This document shows, piece by piece, positions 3,710 through 62,144 of a stretch of DNA of 64,000 bases. Position 1 is the first letter of the stretch, and every line of letters starts with the position of its first letter. A program made the position numbers and the translations under genes. The notes below the pieces were generated by a model, which saw only the letters and a list, made by a program, of their open reading frames with translations, was not told the DNA's origin and ran no database searches. Origin of the DNA: Anaeramoeba flamelloides (taxonomy: Eukaryota; Metamonada; Anaeramoebidae); assembly GCA_027625915.1 (NCBI GenBank), contig JANTQA010000012.1:2387001-2451000 (forward strand), given 5' to 3'.

Positions 3710-5654
3710 TTTTGAACAAGAACTTTTTATTCAACATTCTTTTAAGCCAATAAATACATTTTTAGTAATAAAAGTAATATTCACAGACCATAAGATATGA
3801 ATAGTACTTAACAAAGTTGTTTTACAAAAAAAAAAAAAACACAGCCCAAAATGAACCAAAAAACCAAAGAAAGCAAGAATTTTTTCAGAGAATTGATTTT
3901 TTCAATAAACTATGACTTATTTATGGAGTGCATTCGCTCTGTGGAAACTCACCAATAATTAAACTCCTAGAATATCACTTCAATATAGATCCATTAGTAA
4001 GTGAAATATTTTGATTTTAAGGGATTAAATCGAACTAAGAAGAAGTATAAAATTAAAAGAATTTTTCTATTGAAAGTAAATCATATTAGTGACCCTTGGT
4101 TCAAATTTCTCTTAAAAATCCAATTTCTGAAATAGTACTAAAAGTCGATCTAATCAATTAAAAATGATACTTTTATTAGTAAAAAAAATTCAACAATTTT
4201 CGAAAAAAACCTGCATTTTGAGATAAATTTAAAGATTTAATTATCAATATCCATATTCTAATGTTGAAAAATATCTTTCTTAAATTAATCTCAAAATGTG
4301 AATTATTGGTTAAAAAGTTCGATTTTTGAAAAACATTAAATAATCAACTCATAGATTATTTTTAGAAAATTAAATCATAAGGTATATAATAAAAAGCGTG
4401 AGGAAATTTATTTTAATATATCTTTATTAAAACTAATTTTAATGTTATTATTCAAATACCCAAAATTTGGATCCATCATTAGTTGATTCTTCATAATAAT
4501 TCAATTTGTTTATTTATAAAGCATTACTTTAATGAAAGATATCAAAGTTTCTGATCACAATTTTTGATAATATTTTTTTAGGTATGAAAATTCGTAATTA
4601 TTTTTTTCTTTTTGATAATACAAATTGTTTTTTTCTAGGATTATTCCTAGAAAAAAAAATCCAATAGAAGGGGAAACTTATAACTGAATTGAATTGTTTT
4701 GAAAAAAACGATTGTATCCTTACCATATTGCTCAATTATTTATTGAAATTAGCCGTAACTTGTTTTGTTCAAAAAAAAAGTGTTTTTTTTTTTATTTTCA
4801 TTTTTTTGAATTATTTTCATAAATATATTTTTGAAACACAAACAATGGGTTCTGATTCAATTAGTAGTAATAATTCACTGAATGTTATTTTACTTATTCA
4901 CGGATAGAAATACTATCAAAGAAAATATTATAAGAACTTTTCAAAAAAAAAACCAAAAATGCCACACTTTTTTGAAAAGTTCTTCTATTAAAAAGTATCT
5001 CGAAAATACAACTAGCTTCATAAAAAGGAAACTAAAGAAACCAATCTTTTGGTTTTTTATTTTGATAATTATTGAATAAATCTTTAAATTAAAAAATTAA
5101 AAAAAAATAGTTACTTTTATAAGATTCTAAATCTAAGTTATTGAATATTTTAACTACTATTATTTTGGTATCAATATTATAATTTTTGAAAAGTGATTAA
5201 AAAAATAACCAATATAATCAATTTTTAATTGTTGTCATTAGTAAAAAATGTAATAATTTATTGTTTAATAAAATTTATACTAGATTTTTATAGGAGTCAT
5301 TTTAACTCCATGTATCGCTAATAGGATTTCTCTACACGATAACATACTTTGACATTATAAACGAATTTATGGTAAAGCTAATTCCTAAACAAAAAAAAAA
5401 AAAAAAACATGAAAAATTTTTTATTTGTTTGAATATTTTTTGAAAACATTTTTCTTTACAATCTTTTTTTTTGAGAATAATTTCATCACTATTTTTTATA
5501 ATAATAATATAGATTACTTTAATAATCATAATAATAAAATAAAAGCATTTTTTTACAAAACCTTAGTTCTAAGCAATAATAACGTTTCAATATTCATTTA
5601 TTCTATTTATAATATTACAAATTATATCCTATAACTAACATATAACACAACAAA
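3710..5654. other. Gene-poor DNA upstream of the WD40 gene
   Basis: No gene is seen. There is a perfect 16-bp stem (AGAACTTTTCAAAAAA at 4934-4949 mirrored at 4969-4984), which looks like a tiny Tc1-type inverted repeat. From about 5020 to 5320 the sequence resembles 57085-57340, a further dispersed repeat. The last 100 bases before 5655 are the probable promoter and leader of the WD40 gene. Confidence 0.4.
5020..5320. repeat. Diverged dispersed repeat shared with 57085-57340
   Basis: Both places share, in the same order, a GATAATTATTGA-like block, an AAATTAAAAAA-rich block, ATAATTACTTTTA, and a closing AATAATTTATT...TATAGGATTTT block. The similarity is patchy, so this is an old repeat with poorly defined ends. 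Confidence 0.35.
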
Positions 5655-6659
5655 ATGTATTACATAAAAAAGTTTGTGGAAGGGGATTATCCAACGTGTG
5701 TTGAATATTCGGATTGTGGAAATTATTTAGTTTCTGGAACTAAAAAAGGATTTATTGAAGTATGGGATCCTATGAATGGCGAGCTTAATTCCAAGTTAGA
5801 ATACCAAAAATCAAATAAATTCATGAGACACGAAACTTCGATTTCTGCTTTATGCTTTACAATTGATTCAAAATTACTGTGTTCTGGTACATCAACTGGG
5901 GAAATTAAAATATGGCATGTAGCAAGTGGGAAATCTTTAAAAATAATACATTTACCTGACGAAAAGAAAATTACTTGTTTAAAATTCTCAAAAGATCGAA
6001 TGAAAATTGTAGTCAGTACTATTGATGGTATTTTAGAAATTTATGGATTGAAATCCGGTAAGTGTATTAAAAAATTTGATGGACACAAAGCGAAAATTAA
6101 TTCTTTTGTATTTACCCAAGATGGCAAGTCTTTAATTAGCTGTGGAGATGATTGTTTGATCAAAATATGGAAAATAAAAACTTCAGAATTGATTTCTTCT
6201 TGGGGAATTGATCAAAGGAATGATAATAATAATGAAAAAAATGATAAACAAGACTTAAAATATGTACAAAAAAAGATTAATTTTATTCATCTATTACCAA
6301 ACACAAATACATCATCGCCAAAATTAATGATTTCAAATGATTCGCAAACTCTTTATTTGACTTCTATTTACGGGGAAACATTAAATAGATTTATCCCATC
6401 CAAAATTAAAAACGAATCTTTTAATTTTCGTTTATGTTCATCTTCGGTTAATAGCAAAACTCTCTATTTGGTGGATAATTCAAATTATTTATATTCATTT
6501 AATTTATCAAATGGCGAGTTTAATCGTGAATTGAAAGTTCACGAGTGGGTTTCACTTGATTTAAAAATACATCCAAATAATAATATTCTTGTTACATGCT
6601 CTGAAGATTCAACTATTAAAATTTGGAAAATATTTTCTACCGAACAAAAAAATAAATAA
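5655..6659 (+). CDS. WD40-repeat protein matching the SMU1 propeller
   Basis: This 334-residue protein is a single beta-propeller. The repeat ends GFIEVWD (32-38), GEIKIWH (82-88), GILEIYG (125-131), LIKIWK (168-173) and STIKIWK near the C terminus are visible. Order, spacing and phrases such as YLVSGTKKGFIEVW, GLKSGKCIKKF.GH and FTQDGKSLISC match the WD domain of SMU1, a spliceosomal factor that works with RED/IK. SMU1 normally has about 200 further N-terminal residues with LisH and CTLH motifs. Here an in-frame TAA lies 12 bases before the ATG with no splice acceptor between, so the protein really starts at the propeller. An Asn/Lys-rich loop lies at 186-206. It is therefore a WD-only paralogue or a gene that has lost its N terminus; other seven-blade WD families are less likely. 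The strand and frame are certain. Confidence 0.88.
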   Translation: MYYIKKFVEGDYPTCVEYSDCGNYLVSGTKKGFIEVWDPMNGELNSKLEYQKSNKFMRHETSISALCFTIDSKLLCSGTSTGEIKIWHVASGKSLKIIHLPDEKKITCLKFSKDRMKIVVSTIDGILEIYGLKSGKCIKKFDGHKAKINSFVFTQDGKSLISCGDDCLIKIWKIKTSELISSWGIDQRNDNNNEKNDKQDLKYVQKKINFIHLLPNTNTSSPKLMISNDSQTLYLTSIYGETLNRFIPSKIKNESFNFRLCSSSVNSKTLYLVDNSNYLYSFNLSNGEFNRELKVHEWVSLDLKIHPNNNILVTCSEDSTIKIWKIFSTEQKNK

Positions 6660-9172
6660 TTTAAATTTCTTTATATATAATAATTATATCAAGGTTCTTT
6701 ATTATTTTTTTTTCAGAAATAAATGTAGATTTAAATGAATTTTCTTTAATAAATTTTGTTTTGTGTTTTAAAAATATTTACATCAATAAAAAACATTAAT
6801 TAAATGTCACTTTTCACAGTTGGTAGCCCAATAGTCTTTGAAATAAAATTTGTTTTTTGAATTGTTATCAAAGAAAATATTCGATATCGAAAATAGAAAA
6901 AAATGATCTTTGAAAGAAAAGTTTATAATTAAAAATTGTACAAGTTACATACAATAAAAAATTGAAAAAAAAATTTCAACATTGGGTAATTTTTTTTAGG
7001 TTCTTGTGATTTTATTATTTTTTCATCCAAATTTTGTCAATTTTTTTTTTTTTTTTTATTTGAACAGTTTGTTAACATATAAAAAAAATTTGAATTTTAA
7101 TGATTAAAACACATCATACTTTACTGGAATTTTTTTTTTGGACACGTTATATCCCAACATTGCCTAAAATTGTTTAATAAATCTTTTATTCATTACAAAA
7201 GATATTTTAACAACTCATAGAAAAATTATTTTGATAACTGATTACCGTTCAATAACAATATATATATTTGATTAAAATATTTAAAAAGGTTGTAATTAAA
7301 AGTTAAAATAATAAATATTTTTTTCATAAGAAAAACTTTGTGAAATTTTTTCAATAAATATTTTTTTTTCAAATTTAAAAGATTTGTCCAAAAGTATGAA
7401 TCAGATGAATATTCGATTTTTTTTTAAATTGTAAATTATCAATTTTTCTTTATGGCTTCTTAAAATCTAGACTTAAAACAAGTAATAGTATTGTCATCGT
7501 GATCTCTAATCAAAAATTATTTTTAAAAATCTGGATTAATTTGGATTGGCAAATTCGGTTTTTACAAAGACTTATATGAAATTTTTACCAAACACACAAG
7601 TCGTTGAAATTTAGTTTCGATTTATATAGAATTTTATTATATTTATATAATATTTAAGGGTTATTATTTATTTTTTTTTAAATTTAGACTAATTACTTTC
7701 TCTATTTTAAAAGTTTTTATTTCTTTAATTTAATGTATTAAATAAAAATTTTTTCTACAAAAATATTTTTTATTATTTTTTTATATTTCTTTATTTGAAG
7801 TTTTAGATAATCATTCATATTAATCCATTAATTTTAGCCTAAAGGAATATATTTAATTTTTCTCTTTATTCAATTTTTATTGAAATTTTTTACTGAAAAA
7901 CAAAGTAACTTTTTCAGTAAATATATTGTTTTATTTATTTTTTTAATCATAAAAGTAACAAAAGTATTTTGATTATTCTTAATAAATAAATGTAGTGAGT
8001 TTTTAATTACTATAAGAATAATAATCAAATTTTTAATGAAAAAAAATTCAATTTTAAGTATAATTTTTATGATTCTGAATATATTCTTTTTATTTCACTT
8101 TGAAAAAAAAATATAAAGCATAAGTACTTTATCTTTGAATGATTTTAACTTTTTATTATAATAAAAATTAGGATTAAAGAGAAATAATAAAAAAAAAAAT
8201 TATTCAATCAATATCATTTTTAATCTTTTATTTTAAATTTAAAAAAATTAGGTCAATTACAGATCTTCAATATATATATATAAACTCTTTTTCAAACAAA
8301 AGATTACACCTCTCAAATCACACAATACCATCGAATTTGGTTATTAATAAGACAATTACCTATTGGTGATTTTCATTTTAATTATTCATTTTTTATTTTC
8401 ATTTTTTTTTTATTTATGGATATTGAACAGTAGGAAAATGAGAAAAAACAAGATAAGAAGAAATCAATTTTGAGATAATCTACCAGTATAAAAATGGAAA
8501 AAGTTTAAGTTTGATCACGAATGAGCTAGATATATGATGTTAGATAGACCATTATTTTATTGATTGATGTTACAAAGAAAAAAGAAAAAATCGAAAAAAA
8601 AACAATTCCAACAAAATAAAAAGATGAATTGTGTTTTTATCTTTGTAAATGAGACTTTAAAGAATAAAATTTTGACAGGTAAAGAGTTATCAATAAAATG
8701 TAAAAGAACTTTTCCTTAATTTATAAAGTTCAAAGGTTTTTATTGGATTTTATATTTTTTTTTAAACTTTACAATTTACAAAATGAGATTTCGTATTTCA
8801 AATAAAAGGGCACATCAATTTTTAAAATATTTAATTTTTATTTTTATTATTTTGTTTTAATGAGTTTTAAATATTCAGTTGAGTGTTTTTTTTTATGTTT
8901 TATGGAATTTCTTATATTTTAGAATGAGAATTACAATTAATTTGATTCAAATATGAATAATTCTTGAAAAATTCTCTACTCTTTGTTTAGAAAAAAAGTT
9001 TTTATATATTTACTTCCTACAATAGGGGTATTTTTTATTTTTAGCAAAATTTACAGTAATCAACAAAAAAAAAAAAAAATAATTTTAGCTCTTCTTTTAA
9101 ATTTTAAAAAATGAATTGGGATTGTTGATCAATAAACTAATAAAGGGTAAAAAAAATTCAACAATAATAAAA
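6660..9172. other. AT-rich gene desert
   Basis: The 3' flank of the WD40 gene is followed by about 2.4 kb of very AT-rich DNA with T and A runs. I find no protein-like frame, tRNA or clear repeat in it. Confidence 0.45.
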
Positions 9173-10199
9173 GGAAACAATTGTTATAAAAAAGAATTAA
9201 AAGATATTTTTTATCTTGGGATTTGGTTAGAAAAAAACACACATCTTGAATATAATTTCAAAAAAGTAGAAAAGTCCTTGTAAACACTTAATCGATTATT
9301 TCAACAAAATAAACTCAATAATGGAGTCAAAATAACTTCTTTCAAAGCTCTCATTTTAAGTCAACTTTATTATGGTCTTGAAATATTTGACTTGAAACAA
9401 AAATGATTTTGAAAGAATTGATAGATTTATCAATAAATCAGTCACAAATTTCTTACAAATTAATATCCATTCACCTCGATTAATTAATAAAACTGAAGCA
9501 AAAAATTGATCTCGCTAGATTAAAAAGTATACCGAAGAAAATATAAATTGATAGAAAAATTAGATTTCTTAAATTTAAAAAAATTAAAAACAATACTAAA
9601 TTTTCGAAAATTGGAAAATGAAAATATTAATTGGCACACTAAGGGATTAAAATTATTAGATTTAGAATTAAAAGTTTTTCGATTAACCGAATTAGAAAAT
9701 TCATTTAGTTGAAAAGTTCAAAAATATCTAAAAATCATAAAACAACAAAATTGCAATTTCAAACAACAAAAATATTTAAACTGGAAAGCTTCAAAAACAA
9801 TTCTAAAATTTCGAAATTTTACTAATTGTTTAAATAGGTACTCTTATGTAACAAGTAAAAATAAAAATAAAAATTGTGATTTATGTAAATAAAAGTTAAA
9901 TATTGATATCATTGAAGATTTCGATCTTTTTTTATGGGACTGTCCGGCCTATAAAATAAATCGAAAAATCTGGATATCTGAATTTTTTGAAAAAAATAAA
10001 AAAATTAATAATATCGGAGATATTATTAATAAAAAGAATTCATCATATATATTATCATTAGTAATTGATAATACAATTTGTGATTCTTTCACAAAATTTC
10101 TAAAAAAAAGTTTAGAAATTAGGGCACACATGAGAAAAGCAATTTTCTCTCTTCAAAAATAAAAAAATAAAAAAAAAAAAAAAAAAAAAGGAAACAATT
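9173..10199 (+). mobile_element. 5'-truncated LINE copy with target-site duplications
   Basis: About 1 kb of non-LTR retrotransposon 3' end. Near 9190-9350 it reads KELKDIFYLGIWLEKN, then a segment ending LILSQLYYGLEIFD, the region just after the reverse transcriptase palm. Near 9870-9960 it reads CDLCK...EDFDLFLWDCPAY, a zinc-knuckle tail. It ends in SLEIRAHMRKAIFSLQ, a stop and an A-rich tail at 10160-10189. GGAAACAATT occurs immediately before (9173-9182) and immediately after the poly(A) (10190-10199), a textbook target-site duplication. The frame has several stops, for example after VEKSL near 9280 and after FDLKQK near 9405, so this is a dead, 5'-truncated insertion. It is related to the fragment at 2.9-3.7 kb. 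Confidence 0.85.
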
Positions 10200-11890: not shown

Positions 11891-13087
11891 TTAATACAAC
11901 GAAACATTTCCTGGAACAAGAATTCCTCGATAATTAGAAATATATTCAATAATAACTTTATTCACACACCACAATTTATTAAAATCAAAATAAAGTTTTG
12001 TGCCATGTACAACTTTTGGAATTATAAAAATTCCGCATAATTGATGATTTATTGGCTTTCCCTTTGAGTTTGTTATTATTACCGAAATAACTAATTTTTT
12101 AGGTTGGGAATTTGGGTGATTATGATTTTGTATTACTGTGTATGATAACCCGGAAATCAAAGTTTTTGGTAAATAAAGTTGAAGTATTCTCGAAATGGGA
12201 TCGTATTTCATTTTTTTAATCCAAATTATTTTTTTTTTGACTAAATTTTCTTTTTGTGATTTTTTATTTTTATTTGAAATCCTTTTTGGAGAATTATTAC
12301 GAACCATTTCTTTATACAAATATTTTGAATTTGCTATACTGGTTGTGTTAATGATTAATTTTCCCAAGTGTATTAGTTTTGGTATATGTTTCTTTATTTT
12401 TTTTCTTTTGTGATTAATTTGCTTATTTTTATGATGATTAATTTTTTTAATACTTTTATTATTCCGTTTCTTGTTTTTCTTTTTATTATTATTATTATTT
12501 ATATTCTTTTGATTGTGCTTTTTTGGTAAAGTAATTATAAACGAAAGAATTTGACAAGTAATTTTTTTTGGAAATAATAAAGTAATTTGTGATTCTGGTG
12601 GGATTTTTTGAGTTTTTTGATTTGTCTTTGTTAAATATCCATTATTATTATCATCATCATCATCATCATCAGTATTTCTATTGAATGTTTCTTCGTCCCT
12701 ATCTTCAAACTCGCCGTCTACTGTTTCTTTTATATTATTACCAATAACATCAGAAAGATTGTTATTGTCATTTTCATTTTTACTAATATTCTTACCAATG
12801 CTGTTGTTATTATTAATATTATTCATTTCTTTTTGAATTATTGAATTTTGATCTATTTTAAATTTTCTTTTTTTTTGTTTTTTATATTCCTTTAATAAAT
12901 TCCATTTTGCTACAGGAATCAATTTAGTCAAGGTATCACCTGCATTACAGGTGATTATTGGATAATCTTTTTTATTATACCCCCAATAATCAACAATTAA
13001 AGTGATACTAGTCACATCTGATTTTTTTAATAGTGAAATTAATATTTCCAATTTTTTTAAACCCTTTGGTGCAAACCAAATATTTAA

Positions 13088-13123
<36 letters not shown>

Positions 13124-16100
13124 TGAAATTGAAATATTGTTTATAGGGGGTGAATATATACTTGTGGGGACATTATTTAAAATTAAATAATTTGGTATGT
13201 TTTTGTGTTCATTTTTACAATTATGCAAATACTGTTTTAGAGAAATAGAATTATTTGAAGAAGAAATTAATTTTAATAGTTTTTGATATTTTTTAGTTGA
13301 ATATTTTAATTCTTTATTTTCAATTTTCAAATTTTTCGAAATTTCATTCAAGTATTTTAAAATTCGTTTTTCTGATTTTAAAATTTTGGAACAATTTCTA
13401 CAAACATTTTTCTGTTCTTCCCAATTATATAGATTGATTAATTTTTTTTTTTTTTTTATACAATTTGAACAATAATTTTTTAAACAATATAGGCATTTAT
13501 TATTTTTTGTAAAATCGATCTTATTGTTGTTAACAATATTATTAACTTGAATATTATTATCTTTTTCATCATTATTAATTGATATAGGATTTGGAATAAA
13601 TGCCGTTGTGTTTTTATTTTTTGCTTTGCTATTATTAGTGATACAATTTTCATTTGAGCAATTGAGTTTTTTGGTTTTGCTTTTTTCTCTATTAACCAAT
13701 TCTATCAGAGTCTTTTCATCTCTAAAATATAAAAATCGTTCAGGATTGAAATCATATGGATTATAATTGTGCTGTATTAAAATGCGATCTCTTTCTGATT
13801 GTGAGATTGAAAATTTTAATCGTAATAATTCCAATAATAAACTTTGGAAAAATGTAATATTATTTGTGGTAATATTTTCGAAGGTCATTAGGCTTTGTAA
13901 ATGAGAAAGATATTCTTCAAATAGCCTTTCTTTATTATTTTTATAATTTGGCTTAAATTTTAAAATTGCGTCAATTGGGTCTTGATGTTTTATTAGTAAT
14001 CTATTCAGACTTTTATTAATTTTATTTATTTTTATTGCTTTTTTATCTTTATTCTTGGATTTGTTATTTTCTTCAAGTTTCTGATCTTGATTCGTATTAA
14101 TATAAATTGAATTGTTGTTATCGTTTGGATTATTTTCATTATGATTATTTTCAATTTGAAAAATATTTTTTTTTAATAATAAATTATTATTATTTTCAAA
14201 GAAATTTTTTTTTTTTTGAAAAATATTCATTATATTATTTTTTTTAAAAAATTGATTCATATTCTGAAACTTTGTAAAAAAATAAAAATTGTTTTTTTGA
14301 AAAGATTTGAAAGTTCTTTCTGATTTCCAAAAATTTTTGATGTGACTTGTTTTTTTAATTTCCTTTGGTAATATTAAATTAAATAAATCATGAATTTTAT
14401 GTAAATTTTTTTTTTTTTGAAATTTATTTTGGATATTTGCTTTATGATTATTTTTCTCTTTGACCTTCCCAAAAACATCTATTTTACCTAATATTAAATG
14501 ATGATCAATATTTTTTTTAAAGTCAATTAATGATTTTCCATAAAAATTTAACCATACAATTCTTGAAATGGTTTTTGGACAAGGCCTGAATCTGTAAATA
14601 TTATTTTTTATGATATTATTTGGTTCTTTATTATTATTATGTTTATTTTTTTTGTTATCTTGATATTTTTCCCTGACATGGTCACTATCATAATCATAAT
14701 CATCATCATCATCATCATCATCATTTGTATCAATGGCATTATTTCCGTCAAGATTATTATTAATATTATCCAAGTCATTATCATTAATAAATTTTTCAAA
14801 TAAATTTTTTTGGTTTTTTTGAAAAGAATACCATAATTTGGTACCATCAGCACAGAATGGTATTTTTTCATTATAATAGATGGTTTGCAATTCATCAATG
14901 GTATTGCCTACAGACAAGTCCATAAAATCTGGATAATGGCCATATTCTAATTCATGCCGAACTGTTAAACAAATTTCAGAAACAATACAAGGTTGATTTA
15001 ATAAAATTACAACACTAACTTTTGTACAATGCTTTGGAACTATCCATTTAATTTCTGGATCGTTTAATAATAATGGAAGTTTTGGTAAGATTTGGATTTT
15101 TTGTCGATGATTTTCAGAACGTGTAATTACTTTTTTACATGGAATACTTCTTAATAAACTTGATGGGAAATCAGATACAAGTTCAATATTAGAATTTTTC
15201 TTCTTGCTATTTTTACTTTTGCTTTTGCTTTTACTTTTGCCTTTATTATTGTTTTGATTTTTGCTTTTGTTAATTCCTAAAAAAATTTGTGATAATTTAT
15301 ATTTTAATTTATCATTGATTGATATTGAATATAATTTGCTTAATATTGGATAAGTTTTGACAGAAATTCCTCCAAATTTTTTTAAATAGTTCTTTAATAC
15401 TTGATCACCATTTTCAAATTTGTTTGTAAATAAAATTGATTGGATTCTTCCATTTATATAAAATAATTCTGCTAATGCTTTTTGTATTTGAAAATCCAAA
15501 ATTTCAGTAAATTTACTAAATTTTAAGTGCAGTAGATTCCAAGATTCCTTTTGCTTTAAATTTTGCCCTTGGTTTTGTTTTTCTTCATCTTCATCTTCAT
15601 TTTCATTTTCATCTTCATCTTCATCTTCTTTATTTTTGTCTTCTTCTTGATAATTATTCATTTCTTTTTGCAAATCACCATAATTTAATAATCCAATGCT
15701 AATTTTTCTACAAATCTCTGCAACGATTTGTTGTGAAATAAAATGCATTGAGGTGTTTGTTTGGAGTGGTTTTTTTGTGATGGTTAATCGAAATAATTTG
15801 TCTTGTCTTGTTTTTACATTAAAAATAAAATTTAAATTGTTTGGGGTGCAATTTAAAAAATTTTTTTTATTCTCGAATTTGAAATTCTTATGAGATTTTT
15901 CTAATTCTAATTTTCGGATTTTTGTTTTTGTCAAAAAGCCACTATTTAGTTTTGTTTTTGATAAAAATGGTTTAATTGCCTTCCAAAAGTTGGTAATACC
16001 CGAAGAATAATTTTCATTGTTGATTTGCCCATTCCAATCAAAATTATGGAAATTGAAATCCAAATCTACAATATTCTGGAAACTTTTAATTGAATTCTGG

Positions 16101-19100
16101 AAACTTTCAAACAATTTATTTTCATTCTTTGATTTTTTTTTTGGAAAAAAACTAAGGCAATTCAATGTTTTAATAAAATTGCTGGAAAATAGTTTTTTAT
16201 AATATTCAGTGGTGCCTTTATACGGTGATCTATTTATTCTAATTTTTTTTTTTATTTTTTGATTAATTGTTTTTATTCGGTATTTCCAATTGGTTGGAAC
16301 ATTTCCTATTCGGAAAATCATACTATACCACCAAAAAGTTTTTTTTTCTGGGATCTGTTGGAAAATAATTAATTCTGTTTCAGATTCATTGCCTGGTTCT
16401 TTGGATTTTTTTTTGTTTTTTGGATTTTTTATTATTATTATTTAAAATAATTTAAAATTAGGATATATTAAAGGTTTGTTATTGATTAAATTTGTTTTTT
16501 TTATTTGTAAAAAAGAGTGAAAAATTGGAAAAAATAAATTTTGAATTAAATTTTTTTTTACAATTAATGACTTTCTTATGGATCTAAATATCAATTAAAT
16601 TTCAGTTTCACATTTGATCAAATTAATATAATTAATTATTTGGTGATGATGAGAAATATCCTTTTTTAACTTGATGAAATGTATTTATGAAAAGTTATAG
16701 TTAAGTTTTGAGAATGATAACTAACATTTCTAAAGATAAATTATTTTTTTTTTTTTTATTATTTGATGAGTGAAAAATTTAATTTAAATTTTCCCATAAT
16801 GTATTGTAATTTTTTCGCTGTTCTGATTTTTTAAAAAAAAAAAGAAAAACATTGATGAATTTTCTCTCTTTTTCAAAAGTAGCATAATTTAAATTTTTTT
16901 TTCAGCCAAAGTTGTTCCAACCCTTCATTGAAAAATTATAAGAAACATTTAATAAATTTTTTTCTTTGATCTATTGATTTTATTTTAAGAGAAATAAACT
17001 TTTTCTTTTTTCTCAAGAAAAGAAAAAAGAAATAAAAAGTATTTTTAAACTGGTAGGGAAAAAATAGAGAATAAAATTTTTCATTTGATTAAGGGTCGAG
17101 TCATTACGGTTGAAAAATACTTTTCTTAAATGGATTAAAAAAATTTTGTAATTTTAATGAGTGCCTAATACCAATCAAAAACTAACCAACCACATGTGAA
17201 GCGTGATCGATCTCCAAAAATCAACAATCAAAAAAGGACATTTTTTTAGAAAAAAGCGCCAAAGAGAGCCACTCAATTTCCAATTAGAATGGTTGTGATT
17301 TATCATTTTGAAAACAACTGTGAATGATTTTGAAGGGTCACTCTTTGATGCTTTTTGAGATCTCGAAGATTTATTTTTTTCATTTTTTTCCTTTCTCGAA
17401 TTAGTTATTTTTTTCTAAAGAATATTACAAAATCCTTACTTTTTCAAATATAGAGAGTTACAGTTTAACCACAAATTAGATTAAATCGAATTAAATTGAT
17501 TGTACACTTTTAGAAAACAATTTGTTTTAAATTAAAGAAATTTAACCCTTTGGAAATTTAAAAAAAAAAAATAGAAGTAATTTTTAATTAAATTTTTGAT
17601 TTTTTGGAATTGAGAATGATTTTTCAACTTTTTTTTGTTAAATGTAATTTTTCACCAATGAGATCCTCTCAAAATTATTTTTTTGTTATTCCAATTTGAA
17701 TTTTGTCAATCAAAAGAAGGGCAATTCCACAATACCATTTTTGGTTTCAAGTTACTGTTTGAGTATGGAGTAAATTCACGATAAATGACTAGACTGTTAA
17801 TCATCAAAGTTTTCAAGCTAATTAATCCATGAAAATAATAACATGTTTTTAGCAACTGTTAAATAACTTTTTTAGAAAAATTAAACCTCTTTAAAGTTTG
17901 CAAAATACTTAGAAATTGATTTTTTCTTTTGAAATTTTATTTTGTTCTACAAACCATAAATTGGTTATGAAAAATTATGACAAACCTTAAATTTTATAAT
18001 CGAAGATTAAAAATTTTATGTTATCCATTTTTTGTTTTTTGGTTTTAATATTGACAAACAAATTTATTAAAAAAACTTCCATTAACGTAGATCTTCAATT
18101 TCCAAAATTGCAAAAATCTCAATTTTTTGACAATTTAAAAGCAATGATCGAAAAATACTTTCAAGTTTCTGTGATTTCTGTGATTTCTGTGATTTCAACT
18201 CTTACCATTGTGAAAAAAATTTGGTACATTAAAAAAAATTGGGTCAGTCAAAAATTTGTTTTCGTTTTTTAAATAATAAATATTAGCAAAATTATTTTTG
18301 ATCAAAGTAAAATTTTATGAACAAATCTTACATCCAAGAAAAACCAAAGTCACTATCAAACTATAATTTTCAAAATTAATATTAAATTGTTGCATTTTGA
18401 CTATTTAGAATTACTGTGGAACTCTAAAAAAACCGAATTTTAATTGTAAACTTTACTAAAAATAAGAGAACTATTTAATAGGAAATATTAAAATCTATTA
18501 ATTCAATAAAATATTTATCATTGCTAATTAACGCAAATTTATCAAAGTTAATCTTAAATATCCTTTTAAACTAAATTGAATCAAATAATCTTCCAAAAAA
18601 GCTATTTTTTCAGAAGAGATTGTTTTCCACTAATGTTTTACAATCAAAACTTCAAAATAACAAAATATCAAGATTTTAGAAACCATTTAAATTCTTTAAA
18701 TCCTCATAGACAAACTTTAATTTAAAACAGTTATTAATTTTTGGTCTTCCCAAACAATGAATAACTTGATCTTGGAATGAAATCTAATAAAAAAAAAATA
18801 ACATTTTTAGTAAAGTTTACAATTAAATGTCAATTTTTGTTTTTTAGAGTTCCACAGTAATTCTAAAAGGTTAAAATGCAACAATTTAATTTTACTTTTG
18901 AAAATTATAGTTTGATAGTGACTTTGGTTTTTCTTGGATGTAAGATTTGTTCATAAAATTTTACTTTGATCAAAAATAATTTTGCTAATATTTATTATTT
19001 AAAAAACGAAAACAAATTTTTGACTGACCCAATTTTTTTTAATGTACCAAATTTTTTTCACAATGGTTATGAAATTCAATTTTTGTAAACGTTTATAACA

Positions 19101-22069
19101 AGTAAAAAAAAAAAAAATATTTTTGATGTAAGAGAACATATTATTTAAATCTGAGACAAATCAATTTTTCTATTTCATAAAAGACAATTTTGTCATAGAA
19201 AATTGAATTTCTATGTCCTATAACTTTTCATGATGGATTTGAAACGACTGTAGGTTTTCGTAGAGTATCTTCAAGTTCTGGGTTTTTTTTTTACTGTTTT
19301 ATTCTGTGGAGTGTTCTAGGTTTTTTTTAATTTTAGAAATAAAAAGAAAATTTTAATAAATTTTCTTTTTATTTCTAAAATTAAAAAAAACCTAACGAAA
19401 AACTATTGATTTTCTGAGTAAACAGAAAACTCAAGAAAAATTAATGGCAATCTTGGAAATTCAAAAGAATGGGTGAAAACACAAAGATTGTACTCAATTC
19501 TTTTAAATTCTGGAAAAGTTAATGGCAATTTTTTTTAGTATAAGCTTTTGTTGAGAAAATTTATTGATTTTCTAATCAAAACTTTAAATCCAGAAAAGTT
19601 AACGGTGGGTTTTCTTTTTATTTAGAAAACCAATATATTTTACGAATAAAACAGATCACTTCAACAAAATAACAGTTAGTTTTTTTTGTAATTATTAATT
19701 TGATTCTGAAAATCTAATGATTTTTTCAAGAAAAAATAATAATTCAAAAAAAATATTGTCATGAACTTTTCACAAGTTTTCTGTTTACTAATAAAATAAA
19801 TAGATTTTCGTTAGGTTTTTTTTAATTTGAGAAATAAAAAGAAAATTTTAATAAATTTTCTTTTTATTTCTCAAATTAAAAAAAAACCTAGGACACTTCA
19901 CAGAATAAAACAGAAAACTAGTAACTCTGGGAACTTTACGAAAATTTGAATATTTTTTATCAGTTTATTATTTTTCTGTATTTGGAATTTAATGCGTATT
20001 TACTCCTTTTTTTAAAAATAATATTATATTAACTTGACTTTTTCATCATTAAAATTAAAAGTTTGAAAAAAAATTCAGTGAAACCGTTTTGAAAATAAAA
20101 AAATAGCATATAAATAGGAATTTTTTTTTCTAAAAGACTGGAAATTTAAAAACTGGATTATAAGATACCCCCCGTCTCTAAATTCCAATTTATATGCAAA
20201 CTTTGTAATATTATTTTTTTATTATGTTGTAAATAATTATTGCTTGATTGGTTACGTTTTGTATCTACCAAACAGATTTTTCTGTCTAGATATTTACCAT
20301 TTTTTCTTTTTCATGCAGCACATTATCCAATTAATAACAACTGATTTTAGAAATCTTAACTTGAGTGAATTTTTTTTATATGTTTCCTCAAGAAAGCATA
20401 ATCAAACAGTACTTTTTTATTTTTGTAATTTTTGTTCGAATTATTTTTATTATTATGCCTATTTAATATTTATGTGTGACCTATCTTGGAAACTTTTTCT
20501 TTTGGTAATAATTTTTTGATAATAATTTTTTGATGGTTTTCTTGTTGTATTTTTTTTCAAAGTTAAAAAATTTTCTTTTTTACGGATATTCCATAACAAT
20601 TTTCAGAGAGTCAAAGCAAAGATCAATATTTATATTCAATTTAAAGATTATTTCTAAAATTAATTATTCTTTGAGAAATCATTTCTTGATTCTCTTTTAA
20701 TAAAGTCAATTAAAAAGCAATATTTATTTGAATTGAAACAATTTTTAAAAAGGCACCAATTGTAAATTCTTGAAATTTTTTTGAAAGATCCACAGGCTAT
20801 TGTGAAGAATTTTGAGAGATGTTTTGAAACAAAAAAAGATCCTTTGTTTCTTGAATTGGTAAAGAGTACATTTTGTTTCCATTTAAACTTACAACTCCAG
20901 AACAGCTCTCTGAACTTTCTTTATTTTTAGCTTTGGATCGTTTTTTTTTTTTTTTGGAACCGATGAAAACAAAAGAAATAAAATAAAAAAAAATATTGAA
21001 TGTTACCAAATTTGCTATTGACACCACCAGCATAGTATTTTGTCCCAGTATTTAAATTTGATCTTCGTGTAATCACACAAATTTTTAATTTTTGTTTTCT
21101 GTTTGAAGAAATGTGTGCTTGTCCGTTTTTGACTGTGAGAAGATCTTTTGTTAAAGCACAGCCCTGTAAGAGCACTACACACCACCTTCTCAAACCAAGT
21201 TTTGTAAAGGGGATGGCTAACCAATTATTCCAACAAAAATCATTACGACATCTTTAATTTGTGAATTAGGTTCACGGTTTTGTGGTTGATTGGTTTCATA
21301 CAATTGTAAGCAAGTTCAAAAATATTGAAAGAAATATAAAAAAAAAAATTTTAAAATAAAAGCGAAAAGGTAAGAGGAAAAAAAGATTCAAATAAAAAAA
21401 AAAAAAAATCAATAGAAAAGAGGATACTCTCCAATTGGATAATCTGATGGGTAAGGACGGGTAATGTCTAAAGTTTCACAGTAGTAATGGAAGTTGTTAA
21501 TTGGGAATTGGTGGATTAAATTATTTGTTTTTGGAAAAGTTGTATTGTTTAAGGGAAGGAAGTGTAAGGGAATTCTGATCCAATGCGACTTTTCGATTGT
21601 TTTTATTCTGTTTCCCCCATGCAAACGAAGAGACGTTTTTGCAGATAAAACAACTAACAAATGCCCAAATTTTCCCATTATACAAAACCCAATCAAAGCC
21701 TTGCAACGAACATGCGTTTTTTCTTTGATACCTCTGTTTCTTAATGCTTCAAGAGCAGCTTTTTCATTGGTAAACAAATCATATCCCTCAATTCCAAAAT
21801 ACCTTATTTTCCCAAGAATTGGCTCGATGGAAAGTATTTGAGTGTCCTCTCTTGAACAGATTGAACTGATAATATACTGAATAGTGTTAAAAAAATCAAT
21901 TTGTTGTTGGTTTTTTTTTTTTTTGTTTTTTTTTTTTTTTATTAGGTTTTTTTCCTTCTTGTGTAAAAAAAGGCAATAAAAAGGAAATAATAAAAAAAAA
22001 ATTTACAATATGGTTAGAGTGTGACTGAACAATAAGGTGTGTAGTTTTTCGAATTCTTTTGCTACTCAT
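11891..22069 (-). CDS. SAC9-like phosphoinositide phosphatase family protein, catalytically degenerate
   Basis: I assemble four exons: 22069-22007, 21957-21428, 21251-21007 and 16392-11891. They total 5340 bases, giving 1779 residues. All junctions keep frame, with GTAAAT, GTATCC and GTAACA donors. The first acceptor could also lie 3 bases on, at 21954. Homology to plant SAC9 runs end to end: ISSICSREDTQI, CKALIGFCIMGKFGHLLVV, NFHYYCETLDITRPYPS, WNNWLAIPF...WCVVLLQG, FWWYSMIFRIGNVPTNW, PYKGTTEYYKKL, a discoidin-like segment (CIVSEICLTVRHE...LSVGNTIDELQ), a Cys-rich finger (about 13380-13500) and a C-terminal GTKLYFDF block. SAC9 acts on PI(4,5)P2 at the plasma membrane and endosomes. Here the CX5R(T) loop is ITKKPLQTN (about residues 484-492; 15755-15781), so the nucleophilic Cys and the Arg are absent, and the WW insert is replaced by an acidic run. 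A pseudophosphatase is likely. Identity is confident; function is inferred. Confidence 0.9.
17100..17720 (-). repeat. Dispersed repeat, minus-oriented copy (others at 51560-51960 and 62870-63250)
   Basis: The reverse complement contains CAATTTAATTCGATTTAATC, then a GATCTCAAAAA block and a GTTTTCAAAATG block. The same order is seen in the two plus-strand copies. It has no coding capacity. The ends are not clear, so the element class is unknown. It lies in the giant SAC9-like intron. Confidence 0.55.
18204..19067. repeat. Foldback element with 260-bp inverted arms
   Basis: The left arm (18204-18464, starting ACCATTGTGAAAAAAATTTG) is the reverse complement of the right arm (about 18804-19067) with only scattered mismatches and small gaps. 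The 340 bp between the arms shows no coding frame. This is the structure of a non-autonomous foldback DNA transposon. Just before it, CTGTGATTT is repeated three times (about 18168-18195). Confidence 0.8.
19293..19913. repeat. Compound hairpin element related to the GCCGTCAAGTGCC foldbacks
   Basis: The ends are inverted (CTGTTTTATTCTGTG at the left, CACAGAATAAAACAG at the right). Each is followed inward by a perfect AT-rich hairpin (TTTTTTTTAATTT.AGAAATAAAAAGAAAATTTTAA and complement) flanked by CCTAG or CCTAACG. The middle (19445-19530) carries the AATTCTTTTAAATTCTGGAAAAG hairpin of copies A and B. It looks like several family members joined together or a longer parent element. Confidence 0.65.
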
Positions 22070-40825: not shown

Positions 40826-42231
40826 TCAATTGTTGGTGGACTATCATATTAAAATCCCATAAAATATTTTACCAGTTTCTTTGAAAATTTAATTTTGCTG
40901 AAGAACTTGAACATGTAATAAAATTCTAATACATGATTTTTTTAAACATGGGAGTACATATATTTATCTTAGATCCCAATTTAAGTCAACTTTGGTCGTT
41001 ATATCTTAAATTATTCCAAAGGATTCAAAAATTATCTATTATTTTTTTTTGAAAATTCTGGGATAATGATAATTTTTGTAAAAAAAATAATTGATTTAGT
41101 TAAAATAAAAAAAGAACCTTTTTTTTTTTTTTTTTTCAAAACATTAAATTTTATTCTTTCAATTTCTTCATAATCTTTTTTTAAACATTGATTTATATAA
41201 CAGATAATTTTGTTTATTTTTTAAATGTATATATATATATATATAAATGTTTTTTATTTTCTCTCTAAAATGGTTCAATATTTCCTGTATGTGTAAAATC
41301 TTATTTATATTTTAAAATGAATTATAGAAATTATGTACATTATTAAGATGTCGTTTGTGTAATTTAAGTTGGCTTGAAAGAAATAAACACAAGATCGATG
41401 TTATTATCTTGGCTTTTCAATTCTCTAATCTTTATATCAAATTCTCCAAAATAAAGAAATTATTTTCCTGTGAACTGCACCTCTTAGAAATTGTAGTCTA
41501 TGTTTTGATAATCACTGAAATTTGATTTGTAAAATAAAATTTTCAACATTGAATACAAACTACCAATTATCTTATTTATTATACCTTAAGTACAACGTTC
41601 CTACCCTGGAGAGTATTGATTCAGTGTGTTATTTTTTCAAAATAAAAATTCTTTGTAGGATAAGAATGTCAAACAAGACAAAAATATTACTAATTTCAAT
41701 GGTGAAAATCAAACTGTGGCAAAAAAAAAAATTATCAAAAAGATTATTAAATGAAAATTTTTAAAAAAAAAACGGATTTTAAGTGATTTCCAAGCATATA
41801 TTCAAATTTGAAAACATTTCAAACTTGTAAAAGTAACTAAAAACAATATTTAGAATAGCTTAGGAAAGTTTTTAAGGTTTGAAGATTTTAAATAGAAATT
41901 ATAAAATAGTAAAATCAAATTTTGGTATGATCTTCAAATCCGTGAAAATCAGTAAAAAGTGAAAAAATTTTCCATTTTTTTGTAAAACAAAATTCTCAGT
42001 GTCTAAATCTAACTGAGAGTTAGGAAGTCTATTAAGAGTGTTTTTATCAACAACTTAACTTTTATGGCTTCTAAACATTTTGCTTTAAGTTTTATAATTA
42101 TTGAAAAAAATCATTTTTTTCCATTTTTGAACTTTTTTCTCTTTTTTTAAATAATAAAAACAACACAACAAAAAAAAAATTCCTTCTTTCTGTGGATCAA
42201 ATTATTTAATTAAACAAACAAACACACACCA
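40437..42231. other. Spacer between G alpha and the SH3 gene
   Basis: It contains a T run (about 40577-40602), an (AT)n microsatellite (about 40795-40820) and a (TA)n run (41228-41244). Bases 40609-40774 are open in the plus direction and read like protein (SKNYRRNLCFTPINS..., then FFGERSIKDCLEIREIIK, stop), but there is no start, no clear acceptor and no family I recognise. It may be a stray exon or gene remnant. The last 150 bases should hold the SH3 gene promoter. Confidence 0.35.
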
Positions 42232-43278
42232 ATGAACGACAATTATTCCAAATTACAAAAAGTTTTAAGTGGACTCTCTGAGCTTCGGGAATTACACAAG
42301 GAAACGAATAAACAGCACGTAGCGCTAAAAAAAATGAAGGAAACATATCTCAAAACAAAAATCGAATACAAGGGCGAGCTTGACACGGAAATTGAGGCCC
42401 TTGGAAAACAGGTTTTACATTTAAAACAGCGAAGGGCACTTTTAACAGAGCTCCAGCAGCGATTGAGTGCCATTGCACATGTGTCAAGAGAATTCCCAGG
42501 GAGGGGACCCGGCCAGGTGCCTGTCACAGCAGGCGATCGTCTGTGGGTTCTTCTCGCGGACGAGGAAGGTTGGACAACGGGGAAACTAATTGGCACCCGA
42601 AGGTCGCGAAAGGGCAAAGTGCCAACCAATTATCTAACAATTGAAGTGCAGCCGCCTCTTCCAGAAAATGAATGGAGCAGCAAATGGGGCGAAGCAGAAG
42701 ACCATTTAGCGCAATTCCAGAAACTTCAGGAATCCTTTAAAACAACTTCTGAGCCGAGTATTCAACAAATCAGTACAGGCAACACGACAACAAACTCCAC
42801 TGATAGCCTCTTCAAACCTTTTCGAGGCAAACTAAGATCAGAATCGTCTTTAATCAAGGAGCAAGAAAAAGTTCTTGAAAGCCCAATTAGTGCGGTTGTG
42901 TGCTTTGATTGGAAGGCACGGCAATTAGATCAGCTTTCAGTCAAGGCAAACGAGAGGGTTATGCTAATTGCAGTGAAAAATGACGAATGGGGAAAGGTCA
43001 CCAATAGCATGAAAAAGCAGGGCTTTATTCCATTGGATTGGATCATCAAAACAAAGACTTTCACAGGAACAGTTAATTCTGATCTAATGCCCAAAAGGGT
43101 AATTAGACCAAAGCCAAAGGACCTTTCCGTATATTTCCCTGAATGGATGAAAATGCCGGCGAGCAATAATGATGATTTAAAAAAGGAAAATAAATGGTTA
43201 AGAGAAGAGGTCGTTAGATTACGAGAATTAGTCGAAAAAATGGAAAACAATTCAAAAGATGAAATTAAAAAAATTTAA
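42232..43278 (+). CDS. Coiled-coil protein with two SH3 domains
   Basis: This 348-residue intronless gene starts at an ATG preceded by ACAAACACACACCA. Residues 1-80 are a charged, heptad-like coiled coil. A first SH3 domain spans about 82-138 (EEGWTTGKL at 111-119, GKVPTNYL at 128-135). A linker follows, then a second SH3 at about 219-273 (AVVCFDWKAR, NDEWGKV, QGFIPLDWI). A short helical tail (about 313-340) looks able to form a second coiled coil. Such proteins usually act as adaptors that bring proline-rich partners to membranes or actin; no catalytic domain is visible. The base composition is clearly richer in G and C than its neighbours, with codons such as CAG, GAG, GGG and CCG. The architecture is certain; a specific orthologue is not. 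Confidence 0.88.
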   Translation: MNDNYSKLQKVLSGLSELRELHKETNKQHVALKKMKETYLKTKIEYKGELDTEIEALGKQVLHLKQRRALLTELQQRLSAIAHVSREFPGRGPGQVPVTAGDRLWVLLADEEGWTTGKLIGTRRSRKGKVPTNYLTIEVQPPLPENEWSSKWGEAEDHLAQFQKLQESFKTTSEPSIQQISTGNTTTNSTDSLFKPFRGKLRSESSLIKEQEKVLESPISAVVCFDWKARQLDQLSVKANERVMLIAVKNDEWGKVTNSMKKQGFIPLDWIIKTKTFTGTVNSDLMPKRVIRPKPKDLSVYFPEWMKMPASNNDDLKKENKWLREEVVRLRELVEKMENNSKDEIKKI

Positions 43279-53807: not shown

Positions 53808-54194
53808 TTAGTTTTTTTCAGAGCCTTCTTTCTTTTTTGGCCTTAAGGCTTCGTGGATAAATGGAATAACACCACCTTCATGAATTGTAACACCATCAAG
53901 TAATTTACCAAGTTCGTCATCAGATTTGATGGCTAATTGGACGTGTCTTGGGAGGATTCTTTGCTTTTTGTTATCAATAGCTGCGTTTCCTGCCAATTCG
54001 AGTAATTCTGCAGTTAAGTATTCAAGAACAGCTGCCATGTAAACTGGAGCACCAGCACCAACTCTGTTTGCGTATTTTCCTTCTCTTAAATGTCTATGGA
54101 TACGACCAACTGGAAATTGAAGACCAGCTTTGAATGATCTTGAGACTGGTTTTGCTTTTGGTTTCTTTTCGCCTTTCTTTGCTTTTTTGGACAT
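53808..54194 (-). CDS. Histone H2A
   Basis: This 128-residue intronless core histone starts [15 protein letters not shown]. It has [20 protein letters not shown] (23-42), the [16 protein letters not shown] helix, [10 protein letters not shown], and [18 protein letters not shown] with acidic-patch residues retained. It ends [11 protein letters not shown] without an SQ(E/D) motif, so it is not an H2AX type. It deviates from the canonical form at AIDNKK (usually ARDNKK) and [17 protein letters not shown] (usually GVTIAQGGVLPNIQAVL). It is divergently transcribed from H2B 815 bp away, the common arrangement for co-regulated H2A/H2B, and shares a leader motif with it. Confidence 0.98.
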
Positions 54195-55009
54195 TTTAGA
54201 TAAAGTATTGTTTAAATTTTTTATTAATAAAAAAAAATGATTATGAATCTTTGGAAAATTATTTTTAATGACTTGATCTGATAGTAGTATTTGAAATAAA
54301 ATGTTAGAGTCATTAGATCCGTTGATTTTTTGAAAACTTTTAACGAATTATTAGATATTTGTAAATCGATGAAAAATATTTTATTAACATAAAACAATTT
54401 TTGAAAAATATTTCTTTCATTTGACAAGTTTTTACAAGAAACGGGATTAAATAATAAAGTCTAATTTGGTTTGTTAAAATTCTATCGAGATTTGTTGAGA
54501 TAAAGTTTTATAAAAAAAAGATTTGTTTTGAAATAATCCAATAATTTTCCGATTTGAAAGAGGAAGATAAACGATTAAATAAAAAGGGTGTACTATGATT
54601 TGAGTTCGTAAATTTTGATTTTTTAAAAGGGATTTTCAAATTTTTTTAATTAGTAAGAATGAAAAAAAAATAAATGACTAAGAATTTTAAAATATTGAGA
54701 AATTGGTGAAAAAACAACACTACAAAAATAGTATGTGAATTGTCAACCATTTCTTCATAGATCTTCTTTATTTTTTTTTCTTGAAAAGTCTTAATAACAA
54801 AGTGGTAACTCAACTCGAGTTGAGTTAAAATGGATGTAGTTCAGAAAACAAAATCAAAAAGTACAAATCCAAAATTTTCTAAAAAATCGTAAAAATATTG
54901 GGTTATTTCAAAACAAAATTATATTAATTTTTACTTTTTATAAAAAATTTTCAAAATAAAGAATCATTTTTTTAAATTAATAAAAAATATACACAATACT
55001 TTATCTAAT
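54195..55009. promoter_or_regulatory. Divergent H2A/H2B promoter region
   Basis: 815 bp between two start codons, with no gene inside. It holds a 22-bp perfect palindrome (54806-54827) and, against each ATG, the same 16 bases ACAATACTTTATCTAA (54993-55008 for H2B; 54196-54211, reversed, for H2A), each separated from its ATG by one base. These are the best candidates for shared control. Confidence 0.75.
54806..54827. promoter_or_regulatory. 22-bp perfect palindrome in the histone promoter
   Basis: The core AACTCAACTCGAGTTGAGTT (54807-54826) is extended by one matching base on each side. It contains a CTCGAG centre. In such AT-rich DNA a GC-containing perfect palindrome of this length is unlikely by chance. 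It lies about 180 bp from the H2B start and 610 bp from the H2A start, and looks like a binding site for a dimeric factor. Confidence 0.6.
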
Positions 55010-60237: not shown

Positions 60238-60431
60238 TATCAAAATCAAAATCAAATTTTTTCATTGAATATTGCATAAATATAGAATTAGAGAGAATAA
60301 TAACCCCTATAATAACTTTTATATCAAAAATTAAACTATTTTTCTCCATAGTCTTTGTTCTTAATCTCTGTCATTTTTTCGATTTTCACTAACTTTACAG
60401 AATTAAGTTTAAAAAGCTTTGGGTTTAAAGG

Positions 60432-62144
60432 ATGTCTAATAATGAAGAAAGTGATTTAGAAAGGGCACTACAAATATCGCTTTTAGAATCACAAGGTAAA
60501 AATGCATCACACCTATATGTAGATCTCCAAAAAAACAAGCAACGGCAATTAATTCAACAACAAAAGCAAAAGCAACAACAGCAATTATTCAAACAATTAC
60601 AAACTCTACAACAACAACAACAAAAACAACAACAACAACAACAACAGCAACCAAAGAGAAAAGAAAGGCAAAATTCACATTTACTAAAGCTGCGCTTTAA
60701 CGGAAAAAAGTTTTATTTGAATAGAACAGAAAGCATCGAAACAAATTCTATCCAAAACAAGGATATGGTTTCGATAAAAGATCTTGTGGCGGGGGAAATC
60801 AAAACAGCAATTTTATGCACTTACTCGCTCCAGGTTGAATTTCTGGATGAACATTTTACAGGGATCAAAAACTTGATCTTGATCAAGCATTGGGATGAAA
60901 ATGAATATGATGAAGGGAAATTCAGCTCCAAAACACAAAAAATCAAGCACATGACTGTCATACACCCACCACATACCATATCAGGTGGCTGCTTTCGAGT
61001 TAAAATGATGATTCTTGATTTCCGATCCTTTCTACGTATCGTGATCTGCACAGCAAATTTAACAAAAGTTGATTGGTATATCACCGGCCAAGTAATCTGG
61101 GTCCAGGATTTCCCTTTGCACCCAAAAGTGAATTCGAACAAGGTATTTCGTTATTTGGAGGACAACGAGAATATCATTCGCAACGAGCAACGCGGCACTG
61201 TCTTTTTTAAGACTCTTGAACATTTTTTTGAACAGATCAATGCGCATAACCTCACTTCCATCATTTATTATTATGATTTTTCCTATGTGCAGGTAGAACT
61301 ATTGTTGTCCATCCCCGGGTTTCACGATGTCAAGCCCAAATTGAACCAAAAAGTTTATGGGCTGCTCCATTTGAGAAATATTATTGAAATCGGGAAGAAA
61401 AATCTATTCAATAGTGTTGTTAGTGAAAAGAAGAAACAGAAATTAAAAGAATCCTTTAACAACTATGAATTATTTTACCAATCTTCGTCTATAAGTTCCT
61501 ACCATCGTGACAATTGGATTCATTTGATTCCGAAAATTATTTCTGGGATTGAATTTCCTTGGGAACAATCAAAAAATGAGAACATTAATTATTATCAAAA
61601 AAAAAATATACAGATTCCAATTGATATTGGAAATGAAAACGAAAATGTAAAAGAGAAAGAGAAAGGAAAAGAGAAAAAGAAAGGGAAAGCTAAAGAAAAA
61701 TTTAAAATTATATATCCATCACTTAATCATTTAATTAAAACAAACAGCTTTACGGGTGCTGATTGCCTGGTGATCAGAAAAGGAATTTGGAAGAGGAAAA
61801 AATTTCCAAAGCAATTATTTTATCAATGTAAGAGCTACAACCCAAAAGTTATTTTACATTCAAAAATTTTAATTGGCTTTGTAGGTAATTTGAAGTTTTT
61901 ATATTTAGGATCACATAATTTATCACCTGCAGCTTGGGGGCAAGTTACAAACAAAAAATTGAAAATCTCAAATTACGAAATGGGGGTAGTTTTTTTTAAA
62001 CAAACAGAAGAAGAATGGGATGACTTGCTAGAAAATTTACCTTTCAAATTCCCACCAGAAAAATACCAACCAAAAGATCAACCATTTTGTTTTGAGTTAT
62101 ATCAACAAATCGTAAAGGAATTTCGTGAGAAATCAAAAAATTAA
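60432..62144 (+). CDS. Tyrosyl-DNA phosphodiesterase 1 homologue with an N-terminal UIM
   Basis: This 570-residue protein is intronless. Residues 8-20 (DLERALQISLLES) form a ubiquitin-interacting motif, followed by a Gln-rich tract (about 38-73). The TDP1 fold runs from about 110, with a first motif in GGCFRVKMMILDF...CTANLTKVDW (R189, K191, N209) and a second in YNPKVILHSKILIG...LGSHNLSPAAWG (H476, K478, N496). TDP1 removes stalled topoisomerase I peptides from DNA 3' ends through two HxK motifs. In the family the first is HxK, but here the histidine, the expected nucleophile, is arginine (codon CGA, 60996-60998). The second motif is intact. A Lys/Glu insert (about 402-423) separates the halves. 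The protein may therefore be inactive, altered in chemistry, or a ubiquitin-reading scaffold. The family assignment is firm; activity is an inference. Confidence 0.92.
   Translation: MSNNEESDLERALQISLLESQGKNASHLYVDLQKNKQRQLIQQQKQKQQQQLFKQLQTLQQQQQKQQQQQQQQPKRKERQNSHLLKLRFNGKKFYLNRTESIETNSIQNKDMVSIKDLVAGEIKTAILCTYSLQVEFLDEHFTGIKNLILIKHWDENEYDEGKFSSKTQKIKHMTVIHPPHTISGGCFRVKMMILDFRSFLRIVICTANLTKVDWYITGQVIWVQDFPLHPKVNSNKVFRYLEDNENIIRNEQRGTVFFKTLEHFFEQINAHNLTSIIYYYDFSYVQVELLLSIPGFHDVKPKLNQKVYGLLHLRNIIEIGKKNLFNSVVSEKKKQKLKESFNNYELFYQSSSISSYHRDNWIHLIPKIISGIEFPWEQSKNENINYYQKKNIQIPIDIGNENENVKEKEKGKEKKKGKAKEKFKIIYPSLNHLIKTNSFTGADCLVIRKGIWKRKKFPKQLFYQCKSYNPKVILHSKILIGFVGNLKFLYLGSHNLSPAAWGQVTNKKLKISNYEMGVVFFKQTEEEWDDLLENLPFKFPPEKYQPKDQPFCFELYQQIVKEFREKSKN

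Follow-up and report, generated by a model that had tools for sequence, protein, structure and literature searches.

A gene for a SAC9-type protein that has lost the catalytic motif of phosphoinositide phosphatases lies on the minus strand of the window, a stretch of 64,000 nucleotides of DNA of the anaerobic amoeba Anaeramoeba flamelloides on contig C13 of the searched genome (254 Mb, 76 contigs). Eight of the 16 SAC9-type loci in this genome share the loss of the C-x5-R motif and form one clade; they are best read as a lineage radiation of putative pseudophosphatases retained for non-catalytic work. The window gene itself probably encodes such a pseudophosphatase, with a SAC fold predicted to be kept, no Cys-phosphate reaction and a SAC domain that would serve as a docking or regulatory surface. 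At the level of sequence, the case consists of the loss of the nucleophile, the catalytic Arg and other conserved residues, of the clade of eight paralogues, and of purifying selection after the loss in one dead pair, along with the near-identity of the window gene to its public counterpart. The fold was assessed by prediction, and selection on the related dead pair and against P0001, the public A. flamelloides counterpart of the window gene (1760 amino acids, 98% identical).

SAC hydrolysis requires a Cys nucleophile and a phosphate-binding Arg, by the established chemistry of C-x5-R phosphatases, and the window gene has neither. Positions 15790-15755 (minus strand) encode RLTITKKPLQTN; when aligned with active SAC9-type proteins, the spliced protein has Ile459 in the column of the nucleophilic Cys and Gln465 in that of the catalytic Arg. 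Translation and alignment thus bore out the sequence-only reading, which had reported TITKKPLQTN in place of NCADSLDRTN, and its flanks, DKLFRL before the loop and TN...AEICRKISIGL after it, were found as quoted. The register of the loop is fixed because the loop-flanking Arg (15/15 active and 8/8 dead rows), the Asn after the loop (15/15 active and 7/8 dead rows) and the following helix are conserved. Two further C-x5-R pattern matches in exon 4, CKKVITR and CPKTISR, are C-terminal to the SAC domain and do not represent the P-loop. P0001 has the identical loop, the paralogous locus C22a (counterpart P0002) a related dead loop, and outside the loop further columns that active proteins conserve are lost as well; therefore, the loss goes beyond chance or base error.

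Profile searches of the genome with PF02383 (all 35 candidates scored, of which 5 are Sac1-type) and PF24790 (16 matches among 17 scored candidates) identified the same 16 SAC9-type loci, these counts being lower bounds. Loci were labeled by contig (e.g. C13b), and "active" denotes the presence of the motif in the sequence. C-x5-R was kept in 8/16 loci, with the loop NCADSLDRTN in C33a, C1c, C1a, C51, C41, C1b, and C33b and ICPDSLERTN in C17. Five further single-frame genes of the Sac1 type showed the loop NC(L/M/I)DCLDRTN, so that, as judged by the motif, catalytic copies are present elsewhere in the genome. The eight dead loops were NSQESLDRTN (C13c), NSQNELKVLN (C1d), NCKNSLEETD (C9a), SGSENIIQIN (C22b), SGSVMKEDFLKTN (C13b), SGSVVHESLSKTN (C9b), TLAEKPRLTN (C22a), and TITKKPLQTN (window gene). 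Cys was absent in 7/8 (retained in C9a), Arg likewise in 7/8 (retained in C13c), and both were present in none. The public A. flamelloides protein P0020 carries the exon-4 start of C13b. In C13c (L023, G000:C13:15187073-15197072), Ser stands in place of the Cys and the Arg is kept; laboratories make the same replacement to obtain substrate-trapping mutants. The long exon of active C1a (L011, offset ~8227-8279) shifts frame at a run of ~30 A, which may be a real frameshift, a short intron, or an assembly length error. In P0006, the counterpart of C41, residues 1-200 contain a serine/threonine-phosphatase domain ahead of SAC9; this public model is possibly fused, because a stop interrupts the genomic frame close to where the two parts meet. 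In A. ignava, no dead copy was found among three proteins (P0003-P0005, all with C-x5-R), which does not imply absence: the homologue searches scored the candidates richest in shared words (7986 and 7984), a set probably filled by low-complexity words.

A maximum-likelihood tree was calculated from 23 rows comprising the 16 paralogues, the three A. ignava proteins, P0008 (sac9-like by its source and presumably from Mastigamoeba), P0009, P0012, and P0015. The eight dead copies formed one clade (support 100/99) with active C33b as sister (100/100), and the window gene paired with C22a (100/100). In a second tree of 21 rows, in which the loop columns were removed and the long-branch Tritrichomonas and Carpediemonas rows left out, the dead clade held at 99/98; it was unchanged with these rows in the first tree. 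C9a, which keeps the Cys, was nested in the dead clade, and the fork of C9a and the five most eroded copies had 93-94% bootstrap support; thus, Cys was either lost once and then regained or lost more than once. The 19 Anaeramoeba rows grouped together with the dead clade nested among them, in a tree without plant SAC9. Neither the main Anaeramoeba groups nor the A. ignava rows take a fixed branching order in the trees, so the loss may be older or younger than the split between the two species.

Exon 4 has 72 columns in which 13 or more of the 15 active rows agree; 20 of these were kept by at most two of the eight dead copies, 34 by at least seven, and 18 fell between. Among the lost columns are, within the loop, the Cys, the Arg, and both Asp and, outside it, the Thr in RRGT, the Asp in NGD, and Arg and Gln in RRYQN...RQ. 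The FDWH His was absent in 8/8 dead copies, yet also in 3/15 active rows (C33b, C17, igA), so its change alone is no mark of death. The commonest residues among the kept columns were Pro, Gly, Leu, Glu, and Trp (21/34). By sequence, this is the pattern expected for a preserved fold with an active site that is not preserved. Within the dead clade, the loop columns are free while the flanks are conserved as in active copies: mean pairwise identity was 0.18 in the eight loop columns (0.91 in the eight active paralogues) and 0.53 in 30 loop-flanking columns (0.54 in active copies).

The predicted retention of the SAC fold, together with the two lysines (KK) in the loop of the window gene, would also suit a dead pocket that acts as a non-catalytic lipid reader, binding a phosphoinositide head group to sense or shield the lipid. 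We consider this unlikely, though it is the strongest of the alternatives. The loops vary within the clade from TITKKPLQ to SGSENIIQ and the three-residue-insertion form SGSVMKEDFLK; 5/8 dead copies have replaced the second RRGT Arg (exon-4 residue 31), and at Thr33, Arg213, Asp318, Arg355, and Gln367 the active residue is kept in at most 1/8. The loss of so many residues around the pocket favors scaffolding or regulation over head-group binding in the old pocket. Catalysis by new residues in the same cleft is quite improbable: the loop flanks are constrained and a His just after the loop (H219) is fixed in 5/8 dead copies, but the widely varying loops share no nucleophile candidate. Residues fixed specifically in the dead clade, as a sign of a new function, showed no excess over controls: 7 were counted for the five most eroded copies, 1 for a set of seven, and 0 for the whole clade, against 20 and 7 for two active clades of three rows and 2 for an active set of six rows.

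Selection after inactivation can be gauged with the dead pair C13b/C9b because both share a three-residue loop insertion and lie deep inside the dead clade. The ratio of nonsynonymous to synonymous substitution rates (dN/dS, omega) of their SAC part was 0.063 (375 codons; twice the log-likelihood difference, 2dlnL, 114 against omega 1), that of the active control pair C51/C1b 0.065 (462 codons; 2dlnL 210). These values derive from the unfiltered codon run; a filtered run kept stretches with at least 30% local identity and letter variety, which lowers dN. A 61-codon-frequency model gave 0.028 for the dead and 0.048 for the active pair at larger dS. With dS as high as 2.4 (C13b/C9b) and 1.9 (C51/C1b), or 5.3 and 2.6 under another frequency model, the exact dN/dS is soft, and the reliable results are the likeness of the two pairs and an omega far below 1. 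For the window gene and C22a, dN/dS was rejected because dS exceeded 30 (saturated); the codon-position mismatches of their SAC part (0.29, 0.22, and 0.45, filtered run) and a 2dlnL of 137 (unfiltered run) still say purifying selection. P0001 and the window gene differ by 15 substitutions in 1746 aligned residues (22 gap columns). The first 514 residues, a stretch that takes in the dead loop, are free of substitutions. In exon 4, the first 380 residues contain one substitution between the window gene and P0001, two between C22a and P0002 (30 in 1694 overall), and none between active C41 and P0006 (13 in 1453 overall). For orthologues of two A. flamelloides strains, a mean identity of 94.8% has been given (PMC11550330). 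In these comparisons, constraint is similar for dead and active copies.

A decaying pseudogene family under lately relaxed selection would account for the missing catalytic residues and for the long branches of several dead copies, but is very improbable given a dN/dS of ~0.06 for a pair whose divergence followed inactivation and 514 residues free of substitutions against P0001. Moreover, the long exons of 8/8 dead copies are open over 1484-2059 codons though 8.6% of random substitutions in this exon would be nonsense (simple weighting), and the GT-AG introns of the window gene are intact. An assembly, splicing, or alignment artefact, conceivable in an AT-rich genome with long homopolymers and a frame break at the A run of C1a, has next to no probability, as the separate record P0001 has the same loop, C22a and P0002 have a related one, and the loop lies mid-exon between conserved flanks. 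The sequence-only reading had proposed a non-catalytic role under selection. Its view that catalysis was lost and the gene retained by selection is backed by the paralogue survey, the trees, the codon models, and P0001; phosphoinositide binding or scaffolding as the role itself is inferred.

The window gene comprises four exons encoding 1754 residues with no stop inside the spliced frame (Table 1), which corrects the earlier length of 1779 residues by the GT-AG introns; its splicing agrees with P0001, and the exon 4 open frame has 1516 codons. The SAC (Syja_N) domain exceeds the Pfam cut-off in P0001 (99 versus 27 bits); the PF02383 genome search matched exon 3 of the window gene, exon 4 not being among the matches listed. 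A canonical FYVE finger has a basic RHHCR motif. In the window gene, the eight Cys are present, the basic-motif position reads NNKCLYC, and the Pfam FYVE score (20.6 bits) is under the cut-off of 27.8, so that the finger does not qualify as canonical. The SAC9 C-terminal domain PF24765 scored 13.9 bits, below the cut-off of 27. Pfam searches of the window gene and P0001 gave no match to a WW domain (E up to 1; E up to 0.1), and neither myotubularin phosphatase nor PH-GRAM domains were among the matches. Public records label P0001, P0002, and P0020 as phosphoinositide phosphatase sac9-related; the "phosphoinositide phosphatase" label is misleading for the dead branch. Intron 3 contains two inverted repeats, perhaps mobile-element remains (18204-18431/18840-19067, arms of 228 nt, 98% complementary; 19321-19454/19752-19885, arms of 134 nt, 87% complementary). 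Just downstream of the gene, 9100-10170 is a broken coding-like stretch that by eye resembles the end of a non-LTR reverse-transcriptase element.

Table 1. Window gene, its domains and altered motifs, and neighboring genes (positions in the window)
Feature	Position	Strand	Remarks
Exon 1, start codon at 22069 (MSSKRIRKTTHLIVQSHSNHI)	22007..22069	-	Splice as in P0001; GT-AG intron
Intron 1	22006-21877	-	GT-AG
Exon 2	21428..21876	-	SAC (Syja_N) domain, N-terminal part
Intron 2	21427-21252	-	GT-AG
Exon 3	21007..21251	-	SAC domain, middle (CRNDFCWNNWL ... AGGVNSKF); PF02383 match C13:2408011-2408346
Intron 3	16399..21006	-	GT-AG, 4608 nt
Exon 4	11891..16398	-	SAC catalytic part, first GBDL, FYVE-like zinc finger, second GBDL, C-terminal region (Pfam)
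NFDWN	16031..16045	-	Most active proteins have FDWH; Asn here for His
Replaced catalytic loop TITKKPLQTN	15755..15784	-	Residues 458-467; active SAC9-type NCADSLDRTN
NGRIQSI	15434..15454	-	Replaces active NGDxxSx motif (Asp to Arg, exon-4 residue 318)
SAC9_GBDL_1st	14822..15061	-	C13:2401822-2402061; Pfam, 2.6e-17, 63.4 bits (cut-off 30)
FYVE-like zinc finger	13376..13660	-	Pfam FYVE match 13510-13376; eight Cys across 13660-13391
SAC9_GBDL_2nd	12881..13099	-	Pfam, 1e-8, 35.6 bits (cut-off 27)
Stop codon	11893-11891	-	Within exon 4
WD40 protein gene	5646-6659		Neighbor (Pfam)
Two-SH3 protein gene	42214-43278		Neighbor (Pfam)
Histone H2A gene	53808-54347		Neighbor (Pfam)
Tyrosyl-DNA phosphodiesterase gene	60429-62144		Neighbor (Pfam)

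By analogy, the dead branch would most likely serve endosomal or phagosomal membranes as an adaptor or regulator, probably by binding membranes or partners. The two GBDL domains and the FYVE-like zinc finger would place the protein on these membranes, where the dead SAC domain would act as a docking or regulatory surface; the protein could then recruit catalytic SAC9s and endocytic partners, retain them, or compete with them, in the way that inactive myotubularins act on active ones. More tentatively, the eight pseudophosphatases might constitute a second, non-enzymatic SAC9 system that serves active SAC9s as adaptors or regulatory subunits where endosomal, phagosomal, or symbiosome membranes have expanded, and in which catalysis was lost step by step. 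The dead paralogues present graded states: one has Ser for Cys but keeps the Arg, another has Glu for Arg but keeps the Cys, and the rest are rewritten more widely. Anaeramoeba is described as keeping symbionts in membrane-bound symbiosomes and as having expanded endosomal regulators including Rabs (PMC11550330), a plausible cellular setting for a dead SAC9 family. Half of a 16-member enzyme family is thus dead in one genome, in one clade and in graded states, and the dismantling of an active site under continued selection elsewhere in the protein can be read directly from the family. No pseudophosphatase branch of SAC9 was found in the open-licence literature searched, outside of which most subscription papers lie, and no paper among the best literature matches listed treats Anaeramoeba and SAC9 together. 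Pseudophosphatases are already known as a kind; a monophyletic radiation inside SAC9 was not met in that literature.

The SAC domain, both GBDL domains, and the tree grouping inside the Anaeramoeba SAC9-type proteins assign the window gene to the SAC9 family by descent; lacking C-x5-R, it does not classify as a SAC9 enzyme by motif. It shares with Arabidopsis and protist SAC9-type proteins the order of a Syja_N SAC domain followed by the first and second SAC9 GBDL. Unlike SAC9, it has the FDWH His and the NGD Asp replaced along with the loop, and it has a FYVE-like zinc finger and no WW domain by Pfam. SAC9 has been called specific to plants, and a WW domain is reported for the plant protein (PMC9436410). 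Outside plants, however, both SAC9 GBDL domains occur together in P0003-P0005, P0008, P0009, and P0012, which include proteins of the metamonads Anaeramoeba and Carpediemonas.

Yeast Inp51/Sjl1 likewise has a SAC domain without the catalytic motif in a working protein, but its activity comes from a 5-phosphatase domain, and it is a single gene with no radiation. The SAC9 C459A mutant also lacks the nucleophile; it is reported to be stable and to colocalize with SH3P2, C459 being required for SAC9 function (PMC9436410). That loss was engineered, whereas the loss in the window gene is natural and common to a clade. In the myotubularins, dead members form heterodimers with active partners, which they likely regulate (PMC6563779), and dead members have multiplied in Entamoeba, where 11 inactive myotubularins stand beside 8 active ones (PMC2927912). 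Inactive myotubularins (MTMR5, MTMR9-13; Amoebozoa IMLRK) resemble the dead SAC9s in the replaced Cys or Arg of a C-x5-R phosphoinositide phosphatase family and in their multiplication beside active copies in one protist lineage (PMC2927912, PMC6563779). They differ in phosphatase family and in domain make-up, which comprises a myotubularin domain, mostly also PH-GRAM, and other accessory domains.
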